The notes under the pieces are model-generated. The model ran no database searches. It saw nothing but the letters and a program-made list of their open reading frames with translations, and was not told where the DNA came from. Below, in pieces: positions 3,570 to 23,193 of a stretch of 27,088 nt of DNA; within the stretch, counting starts at the first letter, position 1; the number at the start of each line of letters is the position of its first letter. The stretch covers positions 1-27,088 of the IMG/VR virus record IMGVR_UViG_3300048007_000094; one strand, given 5' to 3'. The position numbers and the translations under genes are program-made. Origin of the DNA: a virus.

Positions 3570-4130
3570 ATGACATTAGAACAATTAAAACAAGAAGTAG
3601 AGAGGAGGTATGGCTTTGAGATTTCTGGTCAAACCAGAAAGCGAAAGGTTGTTTATGCTAGAAAGGTATTCTGTAAACTTGGTAGGCTTATGAACTATAC
3701 TTTTCAGGATATAGGTAATACTATAGGTGTGAATCATTGCTCAGCTTTATACCACAACAATACATTTTATTCTGTTGAAGACTATGATAATAAAATATAC
3801 AATAGCATATTAGAGGATTACTGTGAGATTGAGAAAGACGAGTCTAATGTAGAGAGCGTTGTTATTTTAGAGGGAAAAGAATTAGAGTACAAAGCTAGAA
3901 TAAAAGAGCTGGAGAGAAAGATATCAGTTTTAGAGGCTAAACCTACTTCACTATCTGAAGATATAATCAAGAAGGTAGATAGCTGGGACTTTGAAACTAA
4001 AATTGAGTTTGTAGATACTAGGCTAGCCCCATTTGAAAGACTTGTTAAGTCAAGAGTTATTAGAAAAAAACCTATAGCTGTTGAAGGAGCAAAGATAGAG
4101 AGAAGAGTTAAGAATCCATTTTTACAATAA
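3570..4130 (+). CDS. DNA-binding protein with DnaA domain-IV-like N-terminus and coiled coil
   Basis: Residues 1-65 of this 186-aa protein resemble the C-terminal DNA-binding domain of the replication initiator DnaA: a first helix (LEQLKQEVERRYG), a basic RKRKVVYARKVF helix, then FQDIGNTIGVNHCSALYHNN, which parallels the DnaA signature helix (GRDHSTVLH type). There is no AAA+ ATPase domain. Residues about 108-126 (ELEYKARIKELERKISVLE) form a likely coiled coil, so the protein may dimerise. The C-terminus is basic. A free-standing DnaA-domain-IV protein could bind DnaA-box-like or phage-specific sites for replication or transcription control. The domain similarity is good; the function is inferred. 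Confidence 0.7.
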   Translation: MTLEQLKQEVERRYGFEISGQTRKRKVVYARKVFCKLGRLMNYTFQDIGNTIGVNHCSALYHNNTFYSVEDYDNKIYNSILEDYCEIEKDESNVESVVILEGKELEYKARIKELERKISVLEAKPTSLSEDIIKKVDSWDFETKIEFVDTRLAPFERLVKSRVIRKKPIAVEGAKIERRVKNPFLQ

Positions 4131-4483: not shown

Positions 4484-4500
4484 ATTGTTATAATATTATG
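4484..4500 (+). promoter_or_regulatory. Late-gene start element, ATTGTTATAATATTATG
   Basis: The 17-base element ends in the ATG of the putative TerS gene. The identical 17-mer ends in the ATG at 19288, with one-base variants on the ATGs at 10400 and 23191. It contains TATAAT and the palindrome ATAATATTAT. Its placement at the head of the packaging and structural blocks suggests a phage promoter, operator or translation-start signal. Confidence 0.6.
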
Positions 4501-4890
4501 AGCAGACATAAGAAATCAGAAGAGACATCTAAGAATGATGGAAGAAAGTATAATAAGAGGTTAGCTCCTAAGCCTATATCCACTAAAGATAAGATGGTTA
4601 AACCAGCTAGAAACACAAAAGCAAAGAAAGAGCGTATTGCTTCTTATGCTGTTTCAGCTATGAAAGAGGTTTTTGGTAGTGAGAAGGATGCGTTTAAACA
4701 CATGGCAGAACTCGCTAAGACTAACTTTAACCAGATGAAGTTGCTTATGGAATATGCATACGGTAAGCCATCTGATAGCATCAATGCGGACAGTAAAAGA
4801 AAAACAAAGTCAGCACCTACAATTAACTTTGTTATGAATAACCAGCAGCCTCAGATTGACAATACTATTGACATAGACCAAGAAGAATGA
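4498..4890 (+). CDS. Putative terminase small subunit
   Basis: The 130-aa product lies immediately upstream of the large terminase and overlaps it by four bases (ATGA), the classic TerS position. It has a long basic, lysine-rich N-terminus (residues 1-50), a helical core (SYAVSAMKEVFGSEKDAFKH to MKLLMEYAYGKPSD) and a polar acidic tail. The core resembles the helical segment of small-terminase-like proteins in Bacteroidota phages that ends in a YAYGKP-type motif. TerS would recognise the pac site and stimulate TerL. The assignment rests on context plus weak pattern similarity. The gene carries the late-gene start element on its ATG. Confidence 0.6.
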   Translation: MSRHKKSEETSKNDGRKYNKRLAPKPISTKDKMVKPARNTKAKKERIASYAVSAMKEVFGSEKDAFKHMAELAKTNFNQMKLLMEYAYGKPSDSINADSKRKTKSAPTINFVMNNQQPQIDNTIDIDQEE

Positions 4891-6101
4891 AAAACTCTAT
4901 ACAGCTAAACGACAAGTATGTACCTCTTTTTACTGATAAATCGAGGTATTTTGTTGTTACAGGGGGTCGTGGTTCTGGTAAGTCATTTGGTGTAAATGTA
5001 TTCTTACTTAACCTAACATACGAGTCAGGACATAAAGTGTTATTTACTCGTTTCACATTAACCTCAGCAGCAGCATCTATTATTCCAGAGTTCATTGAGA
5101 AGATTGAACTGATGGGTGTTGAGAGTGATTTCAGAATCACAAAGGATGAAATCATAAACTTAACCACAGGAAGCTCAATTATGTTTAAGGGTATCAGAAC
5201 ATCATCTGGTAACCAAACAGCCGCCCTGAAGTCTCTTAGTGGTGTTACTACCTTTGTATTGGATGAGGCAGAAGAGCTTGTAGATGAGGACACCTTTAGT
5301 AAGATTGACTTCTCTATACGTTCTAACACTAAGTCGAACAGGGTTGTACTGATACTTAATCCAACAACTAAGGAGCATTGGATATACCAGAGGTTCTTTA
5401 TGTATCCTAACGTAAAAGCTGGTACAAATGGCTCTAAAGGCGATGTAACGTACATACACACGACTTTCGAGGATAATAAGGATAACCTATCTAAAAGTTA
5501 TTTAGAGCAGTTATACGACCTTAAAAGGCGTGATATCGTTAAGTTCGAGCACCAGATACTTGGTGGCTGGTTAAACAAAGCAGAGGGCACTATAATTACT
5601 AATTGGAAGGTAGGACACTTTGTACAGACTGAGCTTATGTGCTATGGACAGGATTTTGGCTTCTCTACAGACATTACGAGTTTAGTAAAGGTATCAGTAG
5701 ATAAAGATACTAGAAGTGTTTATGTGAAGCAGATATACGGAAAGACAAACCTATCTACTTCTGATATTGCTTACAGGAATAAAAAAGAGTGTGGCACAGA
5801 TTTAATTATTTGTGACTCAGCAGAACCTCGTCTTATATCAGAGCTAAAGAATATGGGCTTGAACATAAGACCTACTATAAAGAAGAAAGGGTCAATCCTC
5901 TCAGGGATTGCCCTGATGCAAGATTACCAGATAATAGTTGATAGGGAGTCTAACGGTATTATACGAGAGATAAACAACTATGTTTGGCACGAAAGAAACC
6001 AGAGACCTGTAGATAAGTTCAACCACTACATTGATGCAATTAGATATTCTTTGATGTATTTACTTCAAGGTGTGAACTCAGGAAAGTATGTGATTAGATA
6101 G
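4887..6101 (+). CDS. terL: Terminase large subunit (ATPase and nuclease)
   Basis: This 404-aa protein is the DNA-packaging motor of the PBSX/Terminase_3 type. The ATPase domain shows Walker A GGRGSGKS (26-33), Walker B FVLDEAEE (133-140) and the coupling segment LILNPT (165-170). The nuclease domain shows an RNase H-like arrangement: GQDFGFSTD (264-272), LIICDSAEPR (317-326) and NHYIDAIRYSLMYL (389-402) provide the acidic residues. Its length is normal for the family. It is translationally coupled to the upstream putative TerS. Unlike most siphoviruses, no portal gene follows; the next 4.3 kb holds small accessory genes and repeats, and the portal lies at 24833. Confidence 0.95.
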   Translation: MKNSIQLNDKYVPLFTDKSRYFVVTGGRGSGKSFGVNVFLLNLTYESGHKVLFTRFTLTSAAASIIPEFIEKIELMGVESDFRITKDEIINLTTGSSIMFKGIRTSSGNQTAALKSLSGVTTFVLDEAEELVDEDTFSKIDFSIRSNTKSNRVVLILNPTTKEHWIYQRFFMYPNVKAGTNGSKGDVTYIHTTFEDNKDNLSKSYLEQLYDLKRRDIVKFEHQILGGWLNKAEGTIITNWKVGHFVQTELMCYGQDFGFSTDITSLVKVSVDKDTRSVYVKQIYGKTNLSTSDIAYRNKKECGTDLIICDSAEPRLISELKNMGLNIRPTIKKKGSILSGIALMQDYQIIVDRESNGIIREINNYVWHERNQRPVDKFNHYIDAIRYSLMYLLQGVNSGKYVIR

Positions 6102-6104
6102 AGT

Positions 6105-6186
6105 GTTTAACATTAAGGGGTATGTTTAATATTATACCCCCCTATGTTTAATATTATGCCCCCACTATGTTTAATATTATGGGGGC
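6105..6186 (+). repeat. Repeat cluster 1: four GTTTAATATTAT units with G- or C-run ends
   Basis: Four units begin at 6105, 6124, 6146 and 6169, spaced 19-23 bases. Each reads GTTTAA[C/T]ATTA followed by GGGG or CCCCC. The ends can pair: GGGGTAT (6117-6123) with ATACCCC (6134-6140), and GCCCCC (6158-6163) with GGGGGC (6181-6186). The units start four bases after the TerL stop. No T-run follows, so these are not ordinary terminators. Confidence 0.85.
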
Positions 6187-6193
6187 TTGGTGG

Positions 6194-6313
6194 TTAGCCG
6201 TTAATCGAAATCATAAAAACAAAATGCAGTATCATAAATGTTAAAAATATGACCGCATAGAATCCTAATATGTTAAGGAATAGTTTTATTTGCTTTTTTA
6301 TAAATCTAATCAT
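6194..6313 (-). CDS. Possible minus-strand small membrane protein (39 aa)
   Basis: On the minus strand an ATG (complement of 6311-6313) opens a 39-aa frame ending at 6194. The product has a basic start, MIRFIKKQIK, followed by one long hydrophobic stretch (LFLNILGFYAVIFLTFMILH) and a short tail, which fits a single-pass membrane peptide with its N-terminus inside. A TATCTTTG box lies four bases before the ATG on the same strand, identical to the box at 8061-8068. No good -33 box is seen. AT-rich DNA easily yields short hydrophobic frames, so this is a candidate only. It would be the only minus-strand gene in the window. Confidence 0.3.
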   Translation of the reverse strand: MIRFIKKQIKLFLNILGFYAVIFLTFMILHFVFMISING

Positions 6314-6317
6314 AGCA

Positions 6318-6325
6318 CAAAGATA
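6318..6325 (-). promoter_or_regulatory. Minus-strand TATCTTTG box
   Basis: Read on the minus strand, TATCTTTG matches TAnnTTTG and lies four bases before the ATG of the small membrane-protein frame, so a transcript would have almost no leader. A -33 TTG at normal spacing is absent, which lowers confidence. Confidence 0.3.
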
Positions 6326-6471
6326 TTTTCTTTGTATACTTTAATAATGCTAAAAATCACGAAAAAAGGCTTTGCTATTTAAAATGTTTTTTGTAATAAG
6401 AAGGGGTGATACGTCTTATCGAATAATTGTGCAATTTATCGAAATAGTTTTTTTTATTGGATTATGGCTTG

Positions 6472-6479
6472 TATGTTTG
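6472..6479 (+). promoter_or_regulatory. Candidate host-type promoter box TATGTTTG
   Basis: TATGTTTG matches TAnnTTTG and lies 29 bases before the ATG at 6509. No clear TTG is present 17-23 bases upstream, where there is a T-run instead. If it is used, transcription would start after the in-frame ATG at 6464, which supports 6509 as the real gene start. Confidence 0.4.
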
Positions 6480-6508
6480 TGCTATTAATAACAATAAAAC
6501 AGTATAAA

Positions 6509-6901
6509 ATGGAATTGACAACAAAATTTAGAGAATTAGAAAGAAAGTACAGCTTAGACATTGAAACTATACCTTATGAGTATTATGATGACTTGGAAGA
6601 TGCTAAAGACTTTGAAAGATATTTTGAAGAATTAGAATACTCTACTCATCAAACAGAATGTATTTATTATAGTAATGCCATGAAGTATTTAACTGAACAC
6701 GATACTAGTTTAAATGAATCTTTAGAAATTGCCTGTGAAATGGGTTATGAAGTAGAACATTTGAATAGTGAATTATTAGCTACTTTATTAATGCAACGTA
6801 AAGAATCAGAAGCGCTTTATGACGCTAAAGATGATTTAGAGGATTTATATAATGAATTTATAGAATATAAAAAACAAGTACAAAAAGAATACGAACAATA
6901 A
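6509..6901 (+). CDS. Acidic hypothetical protein (130 aa), first gene of small-gene cassette A
   Basis: The frame is open from 6464, but that start would add a hydrophobic stub (MACMFVLLI) and lies upstream of a promoter-like box. The ATG at 6509 has the A-rich leader (aacaataaaacagtataaa) typical of this region and gives 130 aa. The protein is very acidic and helical, with DDLEDAKDFERYFEELEY near residues 27-44 and a likely C-terminal coiled coil (DAKDDLEDLYNEFIEYKKQV). Strong negative charge is seen in DNA-mimic and anti-host proteins, but nothing here proves that role. No family recognised. Confidence 0.65.
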   Translation: MELTTKFRELERKYSLDIETIPYEYYDDLEDAKDFERYFEELEYSTHQTECIYYSNAMKYLTEHDTSLNESLEIACEMGYEVEHLNSELLATLLMQRKESEALYDAKDDLEDLYNEFIEYKKQVQKEYEQ

Positions 6902-6913
6902 AAACTAAATAAA

Positions 6914-7159
6914 ATGGAAAATAAAGAAGTATTTATCACAAACACAATTCAGTTATGGACTAGTGCTGATGTAGTACACATTGAGGCGGTGGGTTATTCG
7001 CCTAATGAATCAATTTATATTGAATGGGGCGCAAATGCCTTAGTTAGGGATTTACCTTCGCTTTATACCTTATGTAAACAAGCTATTTCACAAGGTGAAG
7101 ACTCACTAAAGGACAAACTTAAGGATTTTGTTAATGAGATTAAAAACGACTTAGAATAA
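6914..7159 (+). CDS. Hypothetical protein (81 aa)
   Basis: This 81-aa protein has an N-terminal half rich in beta-forming residues (VFITNTIQLWTSADVVHIEA) and a helical C-terminal half (SLYTLCKQAISQGED to DFVNEIKND). There is no signal peptide or membrane segment. It follows the previous gene by 12 bases with an A-rich leader and overlaps the next ATG by one base. I do not recognise a family; expression with the rest of cassette A is likely. Confidence 0.65.
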   Translation: MENKEVFITNTIQLWTSADVVHIEAVGYSPNESIYIEWGANALVRDLPSLYTLCKQAISQGEDSLKDKLKDFVNEIKNDLE

Positions 7160-7359
7160 TGTATACAATAAATGTAATAGACGCCACACGCATTTTAAAT
7201 AGCCGTAAAGACTTTATCTTGCTAAATATAAGTAATGATAACAAAATTACAGATTATCGCCTTACAAACGATTTAGCGAGGTTTAGGGGACATTACGAGA
7301 CATTTAGATTAGTGGAAGTAATAAAAAAAGAAATAAATAACGGAATAAAAATATTTTAA
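7159..7359 (+). CDS. Small protein, paralogue of the gene at 9243 (66 aa)
   Basis: This 66-aa product aligns without gaps over about 45 residues with the 78-aa protein at 9243-9479. Shared features are IL-S-[RK]K-[DT]-FI, a later D/E-Y, then R[FY]...Y.TF and a lysine-containing helix. The two lie in different small-gene cassettes, which points to an old duplication or recruitment of the same family twice. Function is unknown. The start overlaps the preceding stop (TAATG). Confidence 0.65.
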   Translation: MYTINVIDATRILNSRKDFILLNISNDNKITDYRLTNDLARFRGHYETFRLVEVIKKEINNGIKIF

Positions 7360-7361
7360 TT

Positions 7362-7541
7362 ATGAAAGCACAATTTGAAATTTTACAACTAATTCAAAGA
7401 GATGGCTACAACGTAGTAACTTGTGGTAATTGTGGGGATGTAGTGTTATTGGAAATAGATGACACTATTGAGGAAGTTCAATGCCCACATTGCAAAGAGA
7501 CTATGGAATACTGCGATATGCCAGATTTATACACACGATAA
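7362..7541 (+). CDS. Small zinc-ribbon protein (59 aa)
   Basis: An ATG two bases after the previous stop opens a 59-aa frame. The product has CGNC (Cys21, Cys24) and CPHC (Cys42, Cys45), spaced as in a treble-clef or zinc ribbon, with a further Cys51 (YCDMPDLY). The segment before it (EILQLIQRDGYNVVT) is a helix and turn. Such ribbons bind zinc and often contact nucleic acid or RNA polymerase. I recognise similar short proteins from Flavobacteriia genomes and phages, but no specific function. It replaces a spurious overlapping reading in another frame. Confidence 0.65.
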   Translation: MKAQFEILQLIQRDGYNVVTCGNCGDVVLLEIDDTIEEVQCPHCKETMEYCDMPDLYTR

Positions 7542-7555
7542 TTAAAACAAATAAG

Positions 7556-7711
7556 ATGGGACGAACAAAACAAATGTATGAACAAATGTACTTAGATTAT
7601 TTTAATAACTTTATAAGTACACAAAGATTCGCTGAGTATTATGATTTATCAATGGACGAAGCCAAAACAATTATAATTGTAGGAAGAAAAATAAATCACG
7701 AAAGAAAATAA
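7556..7711 (+). CDS. Small conserved Flavobacteriia-type protein (51 aa)
   Basis: The frame is open from 7481, but that region is the end of the zinc-ribbon gene. The ATG at 7556, 14 bases after its stop and with an A-rich leader, gives 51 aa. The product has QMYLDYFNNFISTQRFAEYY followed by LSMDEAKTIIIVGRKIN, resembling a small helix-turn-helix-like helical protein common in Flavobacteriia phages and plasmids. Function unknown. Met7 is an alternative start. A strong terminator follows 20 bases downstream. Confidence 0.65.
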   Translation: MGRTKQMYEQMYLDYFNNFISTQRFAEYYDLSMDEAKTIIIVGRKINHERK

Positions 7712-7731
7712 AATGGTTTCGGTTTTATATT

Positions 7732-7762
7732 AAGGGGGTACAGAAATGTATCCTCTTTTTTT
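7732..7762 (+). terminator. Rho-independent terminator after cassette A
   Basis: AAGGGGGTACA (7732-7742) pairs with TGTATCCTCTT (7747-7757) across a GAAA tetraloop, an 11-bp stem with two G-U pairs, followed by a T-run. It ends the transcript of the 6509-7711 genes. Confidence 0.85.
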
Positions 7763-7833
7763 GTTTAATATTATGGGGTGTAGATTTTTACCTGTGTTTA
7801 ATATTATGGGGTGCGTTTAATATTATGCCCCCC
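7763..7833 (+). repeat. Repeat cluster 2: three GTTTAATATTATG units
   Basis: Units start at 7763, 7796 and 7815. All three share the exact 13-mer GTTTAATATTATG; the first two continue GGGTG and the last continues CCCCCC. The G-run at 7808-7811 can pair with the C-run at 7828-7831. The first unit begins inside the T-tail of the terminator, so repeat and terminator are adjoined. Confidence 0.85.
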
Positions 7834-7945
7834 AAAAAACAATATCCTTTCATAAAATTGTTTAATCAAATCTAATAAATAAACGTGACAAATTGGCACA
7901 AAAAAAAATTGTGTTTTGTTAGGATATTTAAAAATATTTATGTAG

Positions 7946-7957
7946 ACGTGCGCACGT
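7946..7957. repeat. Perfect 12-base palindrome ACGTGCGCACGT
   Basis: ACGTGCGCACGT equals its own reverse complement and is strikingly GC-rich in this AT-rich interval. It sits where the promoter box would be in the first copy of the duplicated leader. It could be an operator for a dimeric regulator or a methylation or restriction site. Confidence 0.55.
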
Positions 7958-8034
7958 TCCTTTATTATATTAATATTTATGTATATTATTTAGAATAAAT
8001 ATAAATAACAATAAAACGCAAAAAAATATATAAT

Positions 8035-8068
8035 TTTGTTAGTATATTTAAAATAATGTGTATCTTTG
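8035..8068 (+). promoter_or_regulatory. Bacteroidota-type promoter for cassette B
   Basis: TTTG (8035-8038) and TATCTTTG (8061-8068) match the -33 and -7 boxes of the Bacteroidota primary sigma, with a 22-base spacer. The start would be near 8073-8076, about 60 bases before the ATG at 8134. In the leader, AAGGG and CCCTT (either side of a 20-base A-rich loop) could pair. Confidence 0.7.
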
Positions 8069-8133
8069 AAGGGGGATAAAAAGACAAAAAAACCCTTATT
8101 TAGAATCATTATAAATAACAAAATTTAACAATT

Positions 8134-8400
8134 ATGAAAACATTAAAAACAACAGAGAGAAAAATTAGTAAAGACGGGTTAAAATCATATTATGTATGTG
8201 CGCATAATTTAAAGACTGCAAAATATGGTTTAACGCTTTCCTCAAAATATTCATTAGAAAACACAGGCGCTGCAACTTCTTACAAGTTTGACAATTTAGA
8301 CGAAGCTATAAAAATCGGTGACCTATTTTTACAAAGCAAGTTTATCGGTATTTTTGCGCACAAGCAATTTATGAATAAATTAAATTTTTATAACCTTTAA
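8134..8400 (+). CDS. Hypothetical protein (88 aa), first gene of cassette B
   Basis: This 88-aa basic protein begins MKTLKTTERKISKDGLKSYY and has beta-rich and short helical segments (NLDEAIKIGDLFLQSKF). It has one cysteine and no signal or membrane segment. It is the first gene after the best host-type promoter in the window, so early and strong expression is likely. No family recognised; the KTTERK...YYVCAHNLKTAKYGL pattern may be a small beta-sheet DNA- or RNA-binding fold, but that is a guess. Confidence 0.65.
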   Translation: MKTLKTTERKISKDGLKSYYVCAHNLKTAKYGLTLSSKYSLENTGAATSYKFDNLDEAIKIGDLFLQSKFIGIFAHKQFMNKLNFYNL

Positions 8401-8424
8401 AACAATAACTTAAAACAAAACAAA

Positions 8425-8562
8425 ATGAAAAGAGCGATTAACAATTTTAAACAACAGGAAACCGCCGTCAAAATCGGTATTACATTTGTAGGTACTTTTA
8501 TTATCCCTATGTTGATTTTTATAGCCGTAAACATTGCAAGCGGTAATGTATCCAATTTTTAA
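8425..8562 (+). CDS. Small single-pass membrane protein (45 aa)
   Basis: The ATG at 8425 has an A-rich leader (aaaacaaaacaaa). The 45-aa product has a polar basic start (MKRAINNFKQQETAVK), then one hydrophobic segment (IGITFVGTFIIPMLIFIAVN, residues 17-36) and a short polar tail. It would insert in the inner membrane with its N-terminus in the cytoplasm. A neighbouring gene also encodes a tiny membrane protein, so membrane-directed host takeover, superinfection exclusion or lysis timing are all possible; none is demonstrated. Confidence 0.55.
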   Translation: MKRAINNFKQQETAVKIGITFVGTFIIPMLIFIAVNIASGNVSNF

Positions 8563-8566
8563 AATC

Positions 8567-8591
8567 AAAACAACATGAAACGACAAAATAA
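8567..8591 (+). repeat. 25-base direct repeat over a gene start, copy 1
   Basis: Twenty-five bases covering the A-rich leader and the first codons (MKRQN) of the gene at 8575 recur exactly at 8703-8727 over the start of the gene at 8711. The proteins diverge right after this point, so only the initiation region is shared. Confidence 0.85.
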
Positions 8592-8685
8592 CAACAAAAT
8601 AAACCCTAAAAAATTCGCCTTATATACATTATTTTTATGGCTTAATTTAGTTTTTTGGTTATCAATATTAATTTATATAATATAA
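8575..8685 (+). CDS. Tiny membrane protein (36 aa)
   Basis: The 36-aa frame starts MKRQNNNKINPKK and continues as one hydrophobic aromatic helix (FALYTLFLWLNLVFWLSILI), a likely single transmembrane segment. Its leader and first codons are identical to those of the next gene, and it follows the previous small membrane gene by 12 bases. The frame is short, but the matching initiation region and membrane character support translation. Function unknown. Confidence 0.5.
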   Translation: MKRQNNNKINPKKFALYTLFLWLNLVFWLSILIYII

Positions 8686-8702
8686 AAACAAACACTTTAA
8701 AA

Positions 8703-8727
8703 AAAACAACATGAAACGACAAAATAA
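8703..8727 (+). repeat. 25-base direct repeat over a gene start, copy 2
   Basis: Exact copy of 8567-8591, covering the leader and first codons of the gene at 8711. The copies are 136 bases apart, so slippage or recombination between them would remove the tiny membrane gene at 8575 cleanly. Confidence 0.85.
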
Positions 8728-9055
8728 TATATTTTTAAATATAGGGCTTAAAAATTGTCCTATTGAAGTAAGCGAAATTATAAACCGCTTAAATTATAAC
8801 GGTTTGACGGTTAACGCTTCAATGATTAAAACGAGTCAATACAGCGGATATAAGGAAAAAACAATTGTAATTTATTCGAATTGCGCTTATAAATTTAGTA
8901 AAGTTATTGAAATTATTGAGAACCTTTGCACCGTTACAGGGCAGGACTGCATAGCTTTAAAATACAATTTAAACGAGCTTATAATTTATAACCAATTTAA
9001 AAACATTGAACCTATTAAATTTGAAAATAAATACTTTAAAACATTAACAAAATGA
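8711..9055 (+). CDS. Hypothetical protein (114 aa)
   Basis: This 114-aa protein is predicted to be mixed alpha/beta: a helix (IEVSEIINRLNYNGL), strands (KTIVIYSNCAYKF), a second helix (VIEIIENLCTVTG) and further strands. It has four cysteines without a zinc-type spacing. The alternating pattern resembles a small ferredoxin-like or ACT-like fold, but I recognise no family. It overlaps the next gene by four bases (ATGA). Confidence 0.65.
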   Translation: MKRQNNIFLNIGLKNCPIEVSEIINRLNYNGLTVNASMIKTSQYSGYKEKTIVIYSNCAYKFSKVIEIIENLCTVTGQDCIALKYNLNELIIYNQFKNIEPIKFENKYFKTLTK

Positions 9056-9237
9056 CAACAAAATTTAACAGATATAAAACAAATCTAACAAAGGTGAATA
9101 ACGATATTTATTCATATAGTACAAAAGTAGCTACAATACAGGGCGCAAACCTTATGCAACTAGGCTATTGGTCTGTTACTACTCAGAAGCATATTAATTA
9201 TGTAGCTAAAGAATTAAATCTAAATCTAATTAAATAA
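9052..9237 (+). CDS. DUF8033-like small protein (61 aa)
   Basis: The 61-aa product shows IYSYSTKVATIQGANLMQLG followed by YWSVTTQKHINYVAKELNL. The order of an S-Y-x-T-x-V-A strand, a G-Y-W-S turn and T-T-x-K-H-I-N leading into a helix is typical of short phage and plasmid proteins grouped as DUF8033. No biochemical function is known to me. The family call is from memory of the pattern and should be checked with a profile. It is translationally coupled to the previous gene. Confidence 0.6.
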   Translation: MTTKFNRYKTNLTKVNNDIYSYSTKVATIQGANLMQLGYWSVTTQKHINYVAKELNLNLIK

Positions 9238-9242
9238 ACATT

Positions 9243-9479
9243 ATGAAAGCAACACTATCACAAAAATTAAATATATTAAAAAGCAAAAAAACGTTTATTA
9301 ATTATACACTAGATAACGAACAGAATTTAATCGAGTACGTCATTAATGATAATTTCATGAGGTATAAAAACCAGTACCAAACATTTGCGGTTCTAGACTT
9401 ATTTAAGCAGCAATATATATTAAACTCTGAACAAAACTATACATTAAAACAAATATTAAAAGGACTAAATATAAAATAA
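9243..9479 (+). CDS. Small protein, paralogue of the gene at 7159 (78 aa)
   Basis: This 78-aa protein aligns gap-free over about 45 residues with the 66-aa protein at 7159-7359 (IL-S-K-FI, then a basic-aromatic RY...YQTF motif and a helix) and has a longer lysine-rich C-terminus. Both are small, lack membrane segments and are near the end of their cassettes. Function unknown. The gene starts five bases after the previous stop. Confidence 0.65.
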   Translation: MKATLSQKLNILKSKKTFINYTLDNEQNLIEYVINDNFMRYKNQYQTFAVLDLFKQQYILNSEQNYTLKQILKGLNIK

Positions 9480-9481
9480 TC

Positions 9482-9652
9482 ATGAGGACGGAAAATTATT
9501 TAAAATCACAAGAAATGTATAACCTACAAAAACACTTTGGACATTATGAAGTAAACGCTATATTAGGCGATTTAAACAGCTATAAACAGTTAAGACAGGT
9601 ACACACATATGAACAAATATTTGATGAAATTAGATACCTGTTAAAGGTCTAA
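9482..9652 (+). CDS. Small hypothetical protein (56 aa), last gene of cassette B
   Basis: An ATG two bases after the previous stop opens a 56-aa frame. The product (MRTENYLKSQEMYNLQKHFG, then a helix NAILGDLNSYKQLRQ and YEQIFDEIRYLL) is helical and tyrosine-rich with no cysteines. Tight spacing to the previous gene and a strong terminator 25 bases after the stop support it as the last gene of the transcript. No family recognised. Confidence 0.6.
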   Translation: MRTENYLKSQEMYNLQKHFGHYEVNAILGDLNSYKQLRQVHTYEQIFDEIRYLLKV

Positions 9653-9676
9653 TTTTAATACATATTAACAATAATT

Positions 9677-9703
9677 AGAGCGTATTTTTTACGCTCTTTT
9701 TTT
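9677..9703 (+). terminator. Rho-independent terminator after cassette B
   Basis: AGAGCGTA (9677-9684) pairs perfectly with TACGCTCT (9690-9697) across a five-T loop, followed by a T-run to 9703. It lies 25 bases after the stop of the last cassette B gene. Confidence 0.9.
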
Positions 9704-9725
9704 ATGCAATTATTTTAGTAAGCTG

Positions 9726-9751
9726 TTGATTTTTAATGTTAGATATATTTG
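9726..9751 (+). promoter_or_regulatory. Weak host-type promoter candidate
   Basis: TATATTTG (9744-9751) matches TAnnTTTG, with a TTG at 9726-9728 only 15 bases upstream, which is short. It lies just after the cassette B terminator and would read into the gene-free interval. Confidence 0.35.
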
Positions 9752-9937
9752 TGATTTATGCCCGATTTTTAGCCCTTCTAAGCCCCTAATATCTTTACAC
9801 CTATACCCAACTATCTACCTCAGCGTAAACACGCTTAAAACAGCCTTATATTGGCTGTATGTGGCTGTATTTTAGTGTAATTGACGTAAATCGGAGGTAT
9901 GGTGGGTTGTGTTATCCATTCCAATGATTTCAATCAC

Positions 9938-10081
9938 GTTTAATATGGAGGGGTGTTTAATATTCTGGGGTATGTTTAACATTATGGGGTTGATATAGTC
10001 AAAACTCTTTTTGGTCAAAGTTGATTTATTGATTACAGAAATATATTTGGAAACAAGTTTATGTTTAATATGATGCCCCCC
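9938..10081 (+). repeat. Repeat cluster 3: four degenerate GTTTAA units
   Basis: Units start at 9938, 9955, 9974 and 10063. They read GTTTAATATGGAGGGG, GTTTAATATTCTGGGG, GTTTAACATTATGGGG and GTTTAATATGATGCCCCC. The first three are spaced 17-19 bases and all end in a G-run; the last stands alone about 70 bases on and ends in a C-run. They are less conserved than clusters 1 and 2. Confidence 0.8.
10021..10049 (+). promoter_or_regulatory. Bacteroidota-type promoter candidate
   Basis: TTG (10021-10023) and TATATTTG (10042-10049) are separated by 18 bases, the expected spacing for the Bacteroidota primary sigma. Transcription would start near 10055, run through the last repeat unit and give a leader of about 340 bases before the tail chaperone gene, or make a separate RNA. 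Confidence 0.5.
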
Positions 10082-10277
10082 TATTTTTTATCTTGTTATT
10101 TTAGATTTAGTTTGCTATTCTAATGGTTAGCGTTATACTCGTTAGGTTGAATACTACTTGGGCATCAGCGAAAACAACAAAGGATTAAGTAGTGCAATTT
10201 CTAAGGAGATTTAATTTACCTGAACCAACTATATTGTCTATAGAAGTTTAGCAACTTGGACAGATTTGCAACTGTTA

Positions 10278-10292
10278 CATACTTATAACAAT
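10278..10292 (-). promoter_or_regulatory. Possible minus-strand late-type element
   Basis: On the minus strand the bases read ATTGTTATAAGTATG, sharing the first ten bases with the late-gene start element. Its ATG is followed directly by TAA, so it does not start a gene. It may be a chance match or a minus-strand promoter. Confidence 0.2.
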
Positions 10293-10385
10293 AAACAACT
10301 ATTTTCATTTTGGGTGTATAGAGAAAAAGTATTGATACTTAGTTAGCTATAGATAATATTTATGATAAAATGATATTTATAAAAT

Positions 10386-10402
10386 ATTGTTATAATACTA
10401 TG
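10386..10402 (+). promoter_or_regulatory. Late-gene start element, ATTGTTATAATACTATG
   Basis: One mismatch to the element at 4484 and 19274. It ends in the ATG at 10400, which becomes the preferred start of the tail chaperone gene, 10 codons inside the longest open frame. Confidence 0.6.
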
Positions 10403-11125
10403 AGTAGAATAGATTTGACGATACCATTTAGTTTGGGGCAGATAACACTAGGACAGTATCAGGATTATTTAAAGATATTGGAGAAGTGGGATAAGGAAGA
10501 TGAGACGTATCTTAAGTTAAAGATACTACAGATATTTTGTAAGATGTCTGCTAGTGATGTGCAGAAGATTAAGCTATCTGATTTTGATGACACTATACAA
10601 CACATAAACGACTTATTTGACACAACAACAGATAAGTTGATTAATAGGTTTAAGATGGTTGGTAGTGATGGTGAAGGTGGGGAGCGAACTGTAGAGTTTG
10701 GATTTATACCTAAGCTAGATGATATATCATTTGGTGAGTATATTGACTTAGAGAGTTATATTGGTAAGTGGGAGTCTATGCACAAGGCTATGGCTGTATT
10801 GTTTAGACCTGTTGCTAAGGAGAGTAGAGGTTTCTATTTGATAGAGGACTACGGAGGTAGTTCTAAGTATTCAGAAGCAATGAAGGATATGCCTGTAGAT
10901 GTAGCTTTATCAGCTACGGTTTTTTTTTATCGTTTAGGGATAAAATTACAGACTTATACTCTGGACTATTTAGCGAAGGAAACATTGAAGGAGGAAGCGC
11001 AACGAGTATGCAAGCCAACTTCTCGTCTAAGTGGGGATGGTATCAGTCAATACATACGCTCGCTCAAGGAGATGTCAGAAGAATTGATGAAGTTACAGAA
11101 ACCAGTCTTCATAAGTGCCTTATGA
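10400..11125 (+). CDS. Tail assembly chaperone, unshifted (gpG-like) product
   Basis: The longest frame starts at 10370, but its first ten codons read through the late-gene element; the ATG at 10400 matches the placement seen for three other late genes and gives 241 aa. The first 180 residues are helical and acidic (LGQITLGQYQDYLKILEKWD, later SMHKAMAVLFRPV and PVDVALSATVFFYRLG), a pattern I associate with tail assembly chaperones of Bacteroidota siphoviruses, which bind the tape measure during tail assembly. A nine-T run at 10920-10928 and an open -1 frame support a longer frameshifted form. The gene lies several genes upstream of the tape measure. Function is inferred from the pattern and the frameshift together. 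Confidence 0.75.
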   Translation: MSRIDLTIPFSLGQITLGQYQDYLKILEKWDKEDETYLKLKILQIFCKMSASDVQKIKLSDFDDTIQHINDLFDTTTDKLINRFKMVGSDGEGGERTVEFGFIPKLDDISFGEYIDLESYIGKWESMHKAMAVLFRPVAKESRGFYLIEDYGGSSKYSEAMKDMPVDVALSATVFFYRLGIKLQTYTLDYLAKETLKEEAQRVCKPTSRLSGDGISQYIRSLKEMSEELMKLQKPVFISAL

Positions 11126-19273: not shown

Positions 19274-19290
19274 ATTGTTATAATATTATG
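19274..19290 (+). promoter_or_regulatory. Late-gene start element, ATTGTTATAATATTATG
   Basis: Exact copy of the 17-mer at 4484, ending in the ATG of the prohead protease at 19288, the first gene of the head module. The gap after the tape measure stop is only 31 bases, so the element makes up about half of it. Confidence 0.6.
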
Positions 19291-20995: not shown

Positions 20996-21010
20996 ATTGT
21001 TATACTAATA
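20996..21010 (+). promoter_or_regulatory. Variant late-type element ATTGTTATACTAATA
   Basis: Shares ATTGTTATA with the late-gene start element but lies 17 bases before the ATG at 21028, so the element and start codon are not merged here. It occupies the gap before the highly expressed scaffold and capsid genes. Confidence 0.45.
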
Positions 21011-21027
21011 TAAAAAACCTTTAATTT

Positions 21028-22469: not shown

Positions 22470-22489
22470 TAAACTGTTCATTTAATACA

Positions 22490-22522
22490 AAGGGGGTGGG
22501 TGTCTATCCCATCCCTTTTTTT
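22490..22522 (+). terminator. Rho-independent terminator after the capsid gene
   Basis: GGGGTGGG (22493-22500) pairs with CCCATCCC (22508-22515), with one G-U pair, around a seven-base loop, followed by a T-run. It lies 20 bases after the capsid stop, so the capsid transcript can end here while the tail tube gene follows. Confidence 0.85.
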
Positions 22523-22546
22523 GTTTAACTAAAAAAATATAAAATT

Positions 22547-23095: not shown

Positions 23096-23112
23096 TAACC
23101 AACTATCTTTAA

Positions 23113-23150
23113 CAAAGGAGGGGTTCTGTTTAATACAGAGCCCCTTTTTT
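23113..23150 (+). terminator. Rho-independent terminator after the tail tube gene
   Basis: GGGGTTCTGT (23120-23129) pairs with ACAGAGCCCC (23135-23144), with one G-U pair, around a five-base loop, followed by six T. It is 24 bases past the tail tube stop. Confidence 0.9.
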
Positions 23151-23176
23151 ATTAAATAAAATGAAAACCACTATTT

Positions 23177-23193
23177 GTTGTTATAATATTATG
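23177..23193 (+). promoter_or_regulatory. Late-gene start element, GTTGTTATAATATTATG
   Basis: One mismatch to the exact 17-mer, ending in the ATG at 23191. The open frame extends 10 codons upstream to 23161 but reads straight through the element, so 23191 is the better start. Confidence 0.55.

Follow-up and report, generated by a model that had tools for sequence, protein, structure and literature searches.

Tandem one-orientation repeat arrays as possible transcription-unit boundary elements in a lineage of uncultured marine phages

The window analyzed here, i.e., the whole stretch of DNA under study, is one complete IMG/VR record of 27 kb (27,088 nt). Its products include a sigma-like protein, replication and nuclease proteins, the terminase large subunit (TerL), and structural genes; gene calls followed simple ORF rules throughout, and the contigs used for comparison were mostly incomplete. 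The terL gene (4887 to 6101, + strand; Pfam Terminase_3, 8.5e-31, and PHROG) closes a replication/terminase operon. Among cultured phages, Nonlabens phages P12024L and P12024S come closest by TerL (51% identity), so a marine flavobacterium is the likely host, as judged by this similarity. Downstream of terL, two cassettes of variable small genes lie on the + strand (cassette 1, 6464 to 7711, with a first start possibly at 6511, and cassette 2, 8134 to 9652), together with a conserved 39-aa ORF on the - strand (6194 to 6313; cluster in 4 genomes, close relatives), which is convergent with terL and probably encodes a membrane peptide. A protein encoded at 3570 to 4130 gave a weak match to the DnaA C-terminal HTH (9e-6, under the curated cut-off) and occurs in many, not all, of the array carriers. 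A TTGTTATAATATTATG-type motif is present in five copies against zero expected (4485 to 4500, 10387 to 10402, 19275 to 19290, 20997 to 21012, and 23178 to 23193), mostly ending in or just ahead of a start codon, and a similar CGTTAATATAGTATG stands ahead of late genes in P12024L; the phage sigma-like protein probably uses the motif as a late promoter or leader.

The two cassettes are flanked by short repeats, of which a preliminary description had listed eleven units; their coordinates proved correct, all are on the + strand, and none is inside a credible gene. The pattern GTTTAAYATNNNSSSS (GTTTAAYAT-NNN-SSSS) matched the window 10 times, always on the + strand and outside genes, against 0.01 matches expected from dinucleotide shuffles, and GTTTAANAT alone matched 17 times against 3.2 expected. 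Block 1 (6105 to 6186, + strand; units at 6105, 6124, 6146, and 6169) begins 4 nt past the terL stop codon, separates terL from the convergent 39-aa ORF, and has the same location in relatives. Its runs (G, C, C, and G) could form hairpins at 6117 to 6140 and 6158 to 6186. Cassette 1 is followed by a degenerate unit, the twelfth (GTTTTATATTAAGGGGG at 7722, + strand), whose G run supplies the 5' arm of an intrinsic terminator with a T run and a stem at 7732 to 7757 (unit and terminator together, 7722 to 7762). Block 2 (7763 to 7833, + strand; units at 7763, 7796, and 7815) comes immediately after the T run of this terminator and is followed by a conserved early-promoter-like region (7916 to 7959, + strand; TTG ... 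TATGTAGACGTGCGCACGTTC) with counterparts after arrays in relatives. We infer from its sequence that this region acts as a promoter; all promoters here are predictions, made by visual comparison with the consensus for Bacteroidota (TTG / TAnnTTTG). An alternating GTGCGCAC/GTACACGCG stretch beside the promoter-like block (7940 to 7959) is conserved in divergent phages. After cassette 2, a T-run intrinsic terminator without a unit (9677 to 9697, in a segment extending to 9704, + strand) precedes block 3 (9938 to 10090, + strand; units at 9938, 9955, 9974, and 10063), the final C run of which is followed by TATTTTTT. Two T-run terminators of the late operon, both on the + strand, also bear traces of the repeat: one (22489; 22480 to 22524) has a diverged unit, ATTTAATACAAAGGGGG, ahead of it, and the other (23118; 23105 to 23151) has the motif upstream (CTTTAACAAAGGAGGGG) and in its loop (TTTAATA).

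Pattern scans of viral contigs found arrays on about 80 of them; since many of these contigs were found via the pattern itself, the array frequencies given below describe carriers and not all relatives. The family unit is GTTTAAYAT-N-A/G-T/A-GGGG, with G as the first base in nearly all units and with runs of G in 82% and of C in 18%. Strict units numbered about 496 on one strand versus 2 on the other. The most frequent period was 19 nt (156 cases), followed by 17, 23, 25, and 43 nt, and with spacings of 17, 19, 23, and 25 nt and few of 21 nt the helical phase is lost. All units in contigs with real arrays were intergenic, except for one within a 730-aa gene (in three relatives) and those in spurious short ORFs. 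A coding reading (ATG TTT AAY ATN ATR) was rejected because the 19-nt period shifts the frame and a TAA lies within the unit.

Close relatives (TerL 94 to 100%) carried the blocks at the same places, and more complete relatives had extra blocks after lysis genes and elsewhere. In the TerL tree all arrays fell within a single clade (38 rows), in which one subclade and individual branches have lost them; L027, one of the rows without arrays, is simply a contig ending in terL. A sister subclade is without arrays, and in several of its members no terminator is obvious at the usual position of the array either. A variant array, CTCTTTAACATAGTA followed by a run of G or C, lies behind terL and a terminator in a sister clade (L272, L275, L282, L285, and L287); L292, which carries no TerL call, also has CTCTTTAACATAGTA-type arrays. 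In two further phages (L043 and L044) the position after terL is taken by other repeats, also short (GGTAATATGG), which may represent one more variant of this element. We tested whether the repeats were absent from relatives, unconserved in position, or scattered at random in genes, and they were none of these. What the preliminary description had seen around the small-gene cassettes is thus a conserved, gene-free, single-orientation family.

A scan of GTDB genomes with the repeat pattern yielded 0 arrays, cultured phages and plasmids gave chance-level matches only, none of them credible, and arrays were absent from Nonlabens phage P12024L, the closest isolate by TerL. An Rfam search of positions 6000 to 10450 returned one chance-level match (20 bits versus a gathering score of 71.8). 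We found no earlier description of a repeat of this form, in agreement with the initial impression that it belongs to no described family. A comparison of gene clusters between carriers and their array-less sisters, made with a trans factor in mind, revealed no gene restricted to the carriers. A protein of 46 to 51 aa, considered as a co-occurring trans factor, was dismissed, being also present in an array-less genome (G019).

The position of the arrays relative to genes was asymmetric. The array started within 20 nt of the stop codon of the last + strand gene in 27 of 51 cases and within 60 nt in 41, while the distance to the next gene start varied widely (median, 321 nt). The last + strand gene is usually terL, and when another gene (of 62, 85, or 157 aa) is inserted after terL, the array lies 3 to 10 nt past the stop codon of that gene. 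The arrays are thus located at 3' ends of transcription units, as intrinsic terminators are. Relatives with more sequence have blocks after lysis genes, terL, and cassettes, and one (G029) has single units between many late genes, in hairpin loops or 5' flanks, some with T runs. In L154 the array lies 3 nt after what is, judged by eye, probably an HNH gene, and the next genes form a minus-strand operon; two near-identical tandem terminators at 4500 to 4700 of this contig face the 3' end of a minus-strand operon. Small minus-strand genes stand between units or between terL and the array in five phages (L203, L220, L197, L149, and L200), in all of which the orientation of the units is unchanged. 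Some phages have the array in a divergent region, immediately ahead of a minus-strand gene.

Many arrays adjoin a T-run terminator and lie upstream of an early-promoter-like region, and in several phages the G run of the first unit doubles as the 5' arm of such a terminator. A GC stem with a T run is present at 7732 to 7757, 22489, and 23118 of the window and absent from most units and from G-only arrays. The sequence TTTAAYA was found in or next to 24 of 67 predicted T-run terminators from 13 genomes, which is only a modest excess because the rough expectation is about 15. The initial view that the repeats are not simple terminators holds for whole arrays, although several individual units contribute an arm or a loop to a real T-run terminator. 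On the downstream side, a TTATTTAGAATNATTCTAAATAA-type palindrome (up to 3 mismatches) starts no more than 60 nt past the last unit in 30 of 61 distinct arrays, and many arrays then precede a promoter-like block that is conserved as TTG...TGTAG(T/A) and includes a stretch of alternating GT/CG. The arrays therefore separate the end of one transcription unit from the beginning of the next. The palindrome stands at a near-constant distance after arrays (e.g., L141:1168-1188 and L165:853-873) and looks like a putative operator.

Folding depended on the type of run. Arrays with at least two C-run units folded beyond shuffles (mean z, -2.5), while folding of G-only arrays (34 of 77) was not beyond shuffles (z, -0.9). 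In block 1 of close relatives, pairing was kept in 92% of the cells, with one compensatory change, and the covariation was not significant (171 of 500 shuffles). RNA structure as a universal property was rejected on the strength of the shuffles and covariation counts, and the stems proposed earlier between neighboring G and C runs exist in block 1 (6117 to 6140 and 6158 to 6186) and do not extend to the family in general. Since G-only arrays lack structure, a simple hairpin model is insufficient, and a full explanation would therefore need a factor that recognizes the sequence.

Our tentative reading, to which we assign a probability of roughly 0.42, is that this lineage of flavobacteria-type phages uses the arrays as orientation-specific elements (terminators or insulators) at the boundaries of transcription units. 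A role in + strand transcription at the ends of units is favored because the arrays are anchored to 3' ends on one strand, independently of the genes that follow. During + strand transcription the units would keep transcription of the upstream operon, wholly or in part, from running on into the next promoter and cassette. They would do so partly via alternative hairpins between G and C runs and partly via a putative factor recognizing the conserved unit sequence, and an array could grow or shrink by whole units. In favor of boundary elements we counted the 3'-end anchoring, the strand bias, the places at operon ends, the units that serve as terminator arms, and the folding of C-run arrays; against them we counted the unfolded G-only arrays, the null result of covariation in block 1, the arrays in divergent regions, and the array-less sister subclade with its several members lacking an obvious terminator there. 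Because canonical terminators often precede the array, it seems redundant at some sites. A protein-dependent variant, in which a putative protein on tandem 19-nt sites would halt RNA polymerase as an orientation-specific terminator or roadblock and so insulate the next promoter, would function like the terminator arrays of eukaryotic Pol I and is in our judgment unlikely.

The main rival to boundary elements, itself rather doubtful, takes the arrays as an operator or upstream activating array, to whose DNA a regulator from phage or host would bind and so control the early promoters next to it. The palindrome and promoter-like block after so many arrays suit such a role, as do the conservation of G-only arrays in sequence without structure and the frequent placement of arrays between terminator and promoter and beside the starts of minus-strand genes. 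However, a regulator would have to act over widely varying distances to the next gene and from single units between late genes (G029), with spacings that lose the helical phase; moreover, no gene is exclusive to array carriers, and the genes downstream of the L154 array run on the opposite strand. An RNA-level alternative, in which the units would be boxA/nut-like sites for processive antitermination, draws on the identity of the sister-clade unit CTCTTTAACATAGTA to E. coli rrn boxA over CTCTTTAACA (ten bases), on the TTTAACA common to many units, and on the small GC hairpins after some of them. We regard it as improbable, given that two Bacteroidota rRNA leaders (neither flavobacterial) have TTCTTTGAA rather than TTTAAYA at the boxA-like place, that nearly all units begin with G, and that the sites are at operon ends, not near promoter starts.

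Replication iterons, recombination or insertion boundaries, and packaging sites had also been suggested for the repeats. Tandem direct repeats of 17 to 25 bp with an AT-rich core and a G or C run do resemble iterons or unwinding elements, in which AT-rich modules between GC clamps would be bound by an initiator, but each genome has three to six dispersed blocks instead of a single origin region, the spacing is not constant (17, 19, 23, 25, and 43 nt), units occur between late genes in G029, and the sister subclade lost the arrays while retaining replication genes; an origin is accordingly as improbable as antitermination. Sites that shuffle gene cassettes would explain why the arrays flank variable cassettes and why small minus-strand genes occur between units in L203, L220, and L197. 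Pairwise alignments, however, cross the arrays, and cassettes do not differ exactly at the repeats: changes in content begin at genes, some 240 to 330 bp or more away, and recombination or insertion boundaries are for that reason not supported. Nor is there a sign of exchange between blocks, since variants at position 10 were no more common to blocks within a genome than between genomes (P = 0.42), and we consider this role of the arrays very unlikely. Least probable of all, with hardly any chance of being correct, are pac-like DNA packaging sites: one block is usually close after terL, but others come after lysis genes or, in G029, after many late genes, and arrays are lacking in sister phages whose terL is related.

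The arrays constitute a family of cis elements found so far only in uncultured marine phages, where it marks the ends of operons and cassettes of accessory genes. The preservation of sequence in unstructured G-only arrays points to a putative recognition factor. If the role as boundary elements is true, the arrays show how early cassettes are insulated inside late/replication operons and offer an easy marker for hypervariable accessory regions.

Among known systems, intrinsic terminators share with the arrays the 3'-end position, the GC stems, and the units that form arms or loops of T-run terminators, but a T run is missing from most units and a stem from G-only arrays, and it is the sequence itself that is conserved. 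Plasmid and phage iterons are likewise direct repeats of about 19 bp, whereas the arrays form dispersed blocks with uneven spacing, have no linked initiator identified, and are dispensable in sister phages. The rrn boxA and lambda nut sites have the CTCTTTAACA core of the sister-clade unit, but the arrays are at operon ends and the two boxA-like leaders of Bacteroidota differ. Change of content exactly at the sites, as in integron attC-like cassettes, was not seen at the arrays. In mammalian rDNA, the Sal boxes bound by TTF-I are tandem repeats of about 18 bp in one orientation, located after the transcription unit and before the next promoter; this likeness is one of analogy only, as the Sal-box system is eukaryotic and belongs to Pol I, and a binding protein for the phage arrays would be putative. 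The closest analogy is with the composite PeSL (promoter-early stem-loops) of T4-like phages, which, according to two articles (PMC4503421, PMC4177764) that cite the original descriptions by Arbiol et al. (2010) and Comeau et al. (2014), are intergenic stem-loops/terminators beside early promoters that recur along the borders of small-gene modules in hypervariable regions. Compared with the PeSL as portrayed there, the present elements are tandem, sequence-conserved units of 16 to 19 nt that do not always form a stem-loop and belong to another phage lineage. Recombination breakpoints at the element are a further mark of PeSL, whereas alignments cross the arrays and break at genes, and for this reason we do not file the arrays as PeSL. 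As for a composition of the PeSL type, in many phages the array is combined with a predicted promoter-like region, but a stem-loop is confined to part of the arrays.
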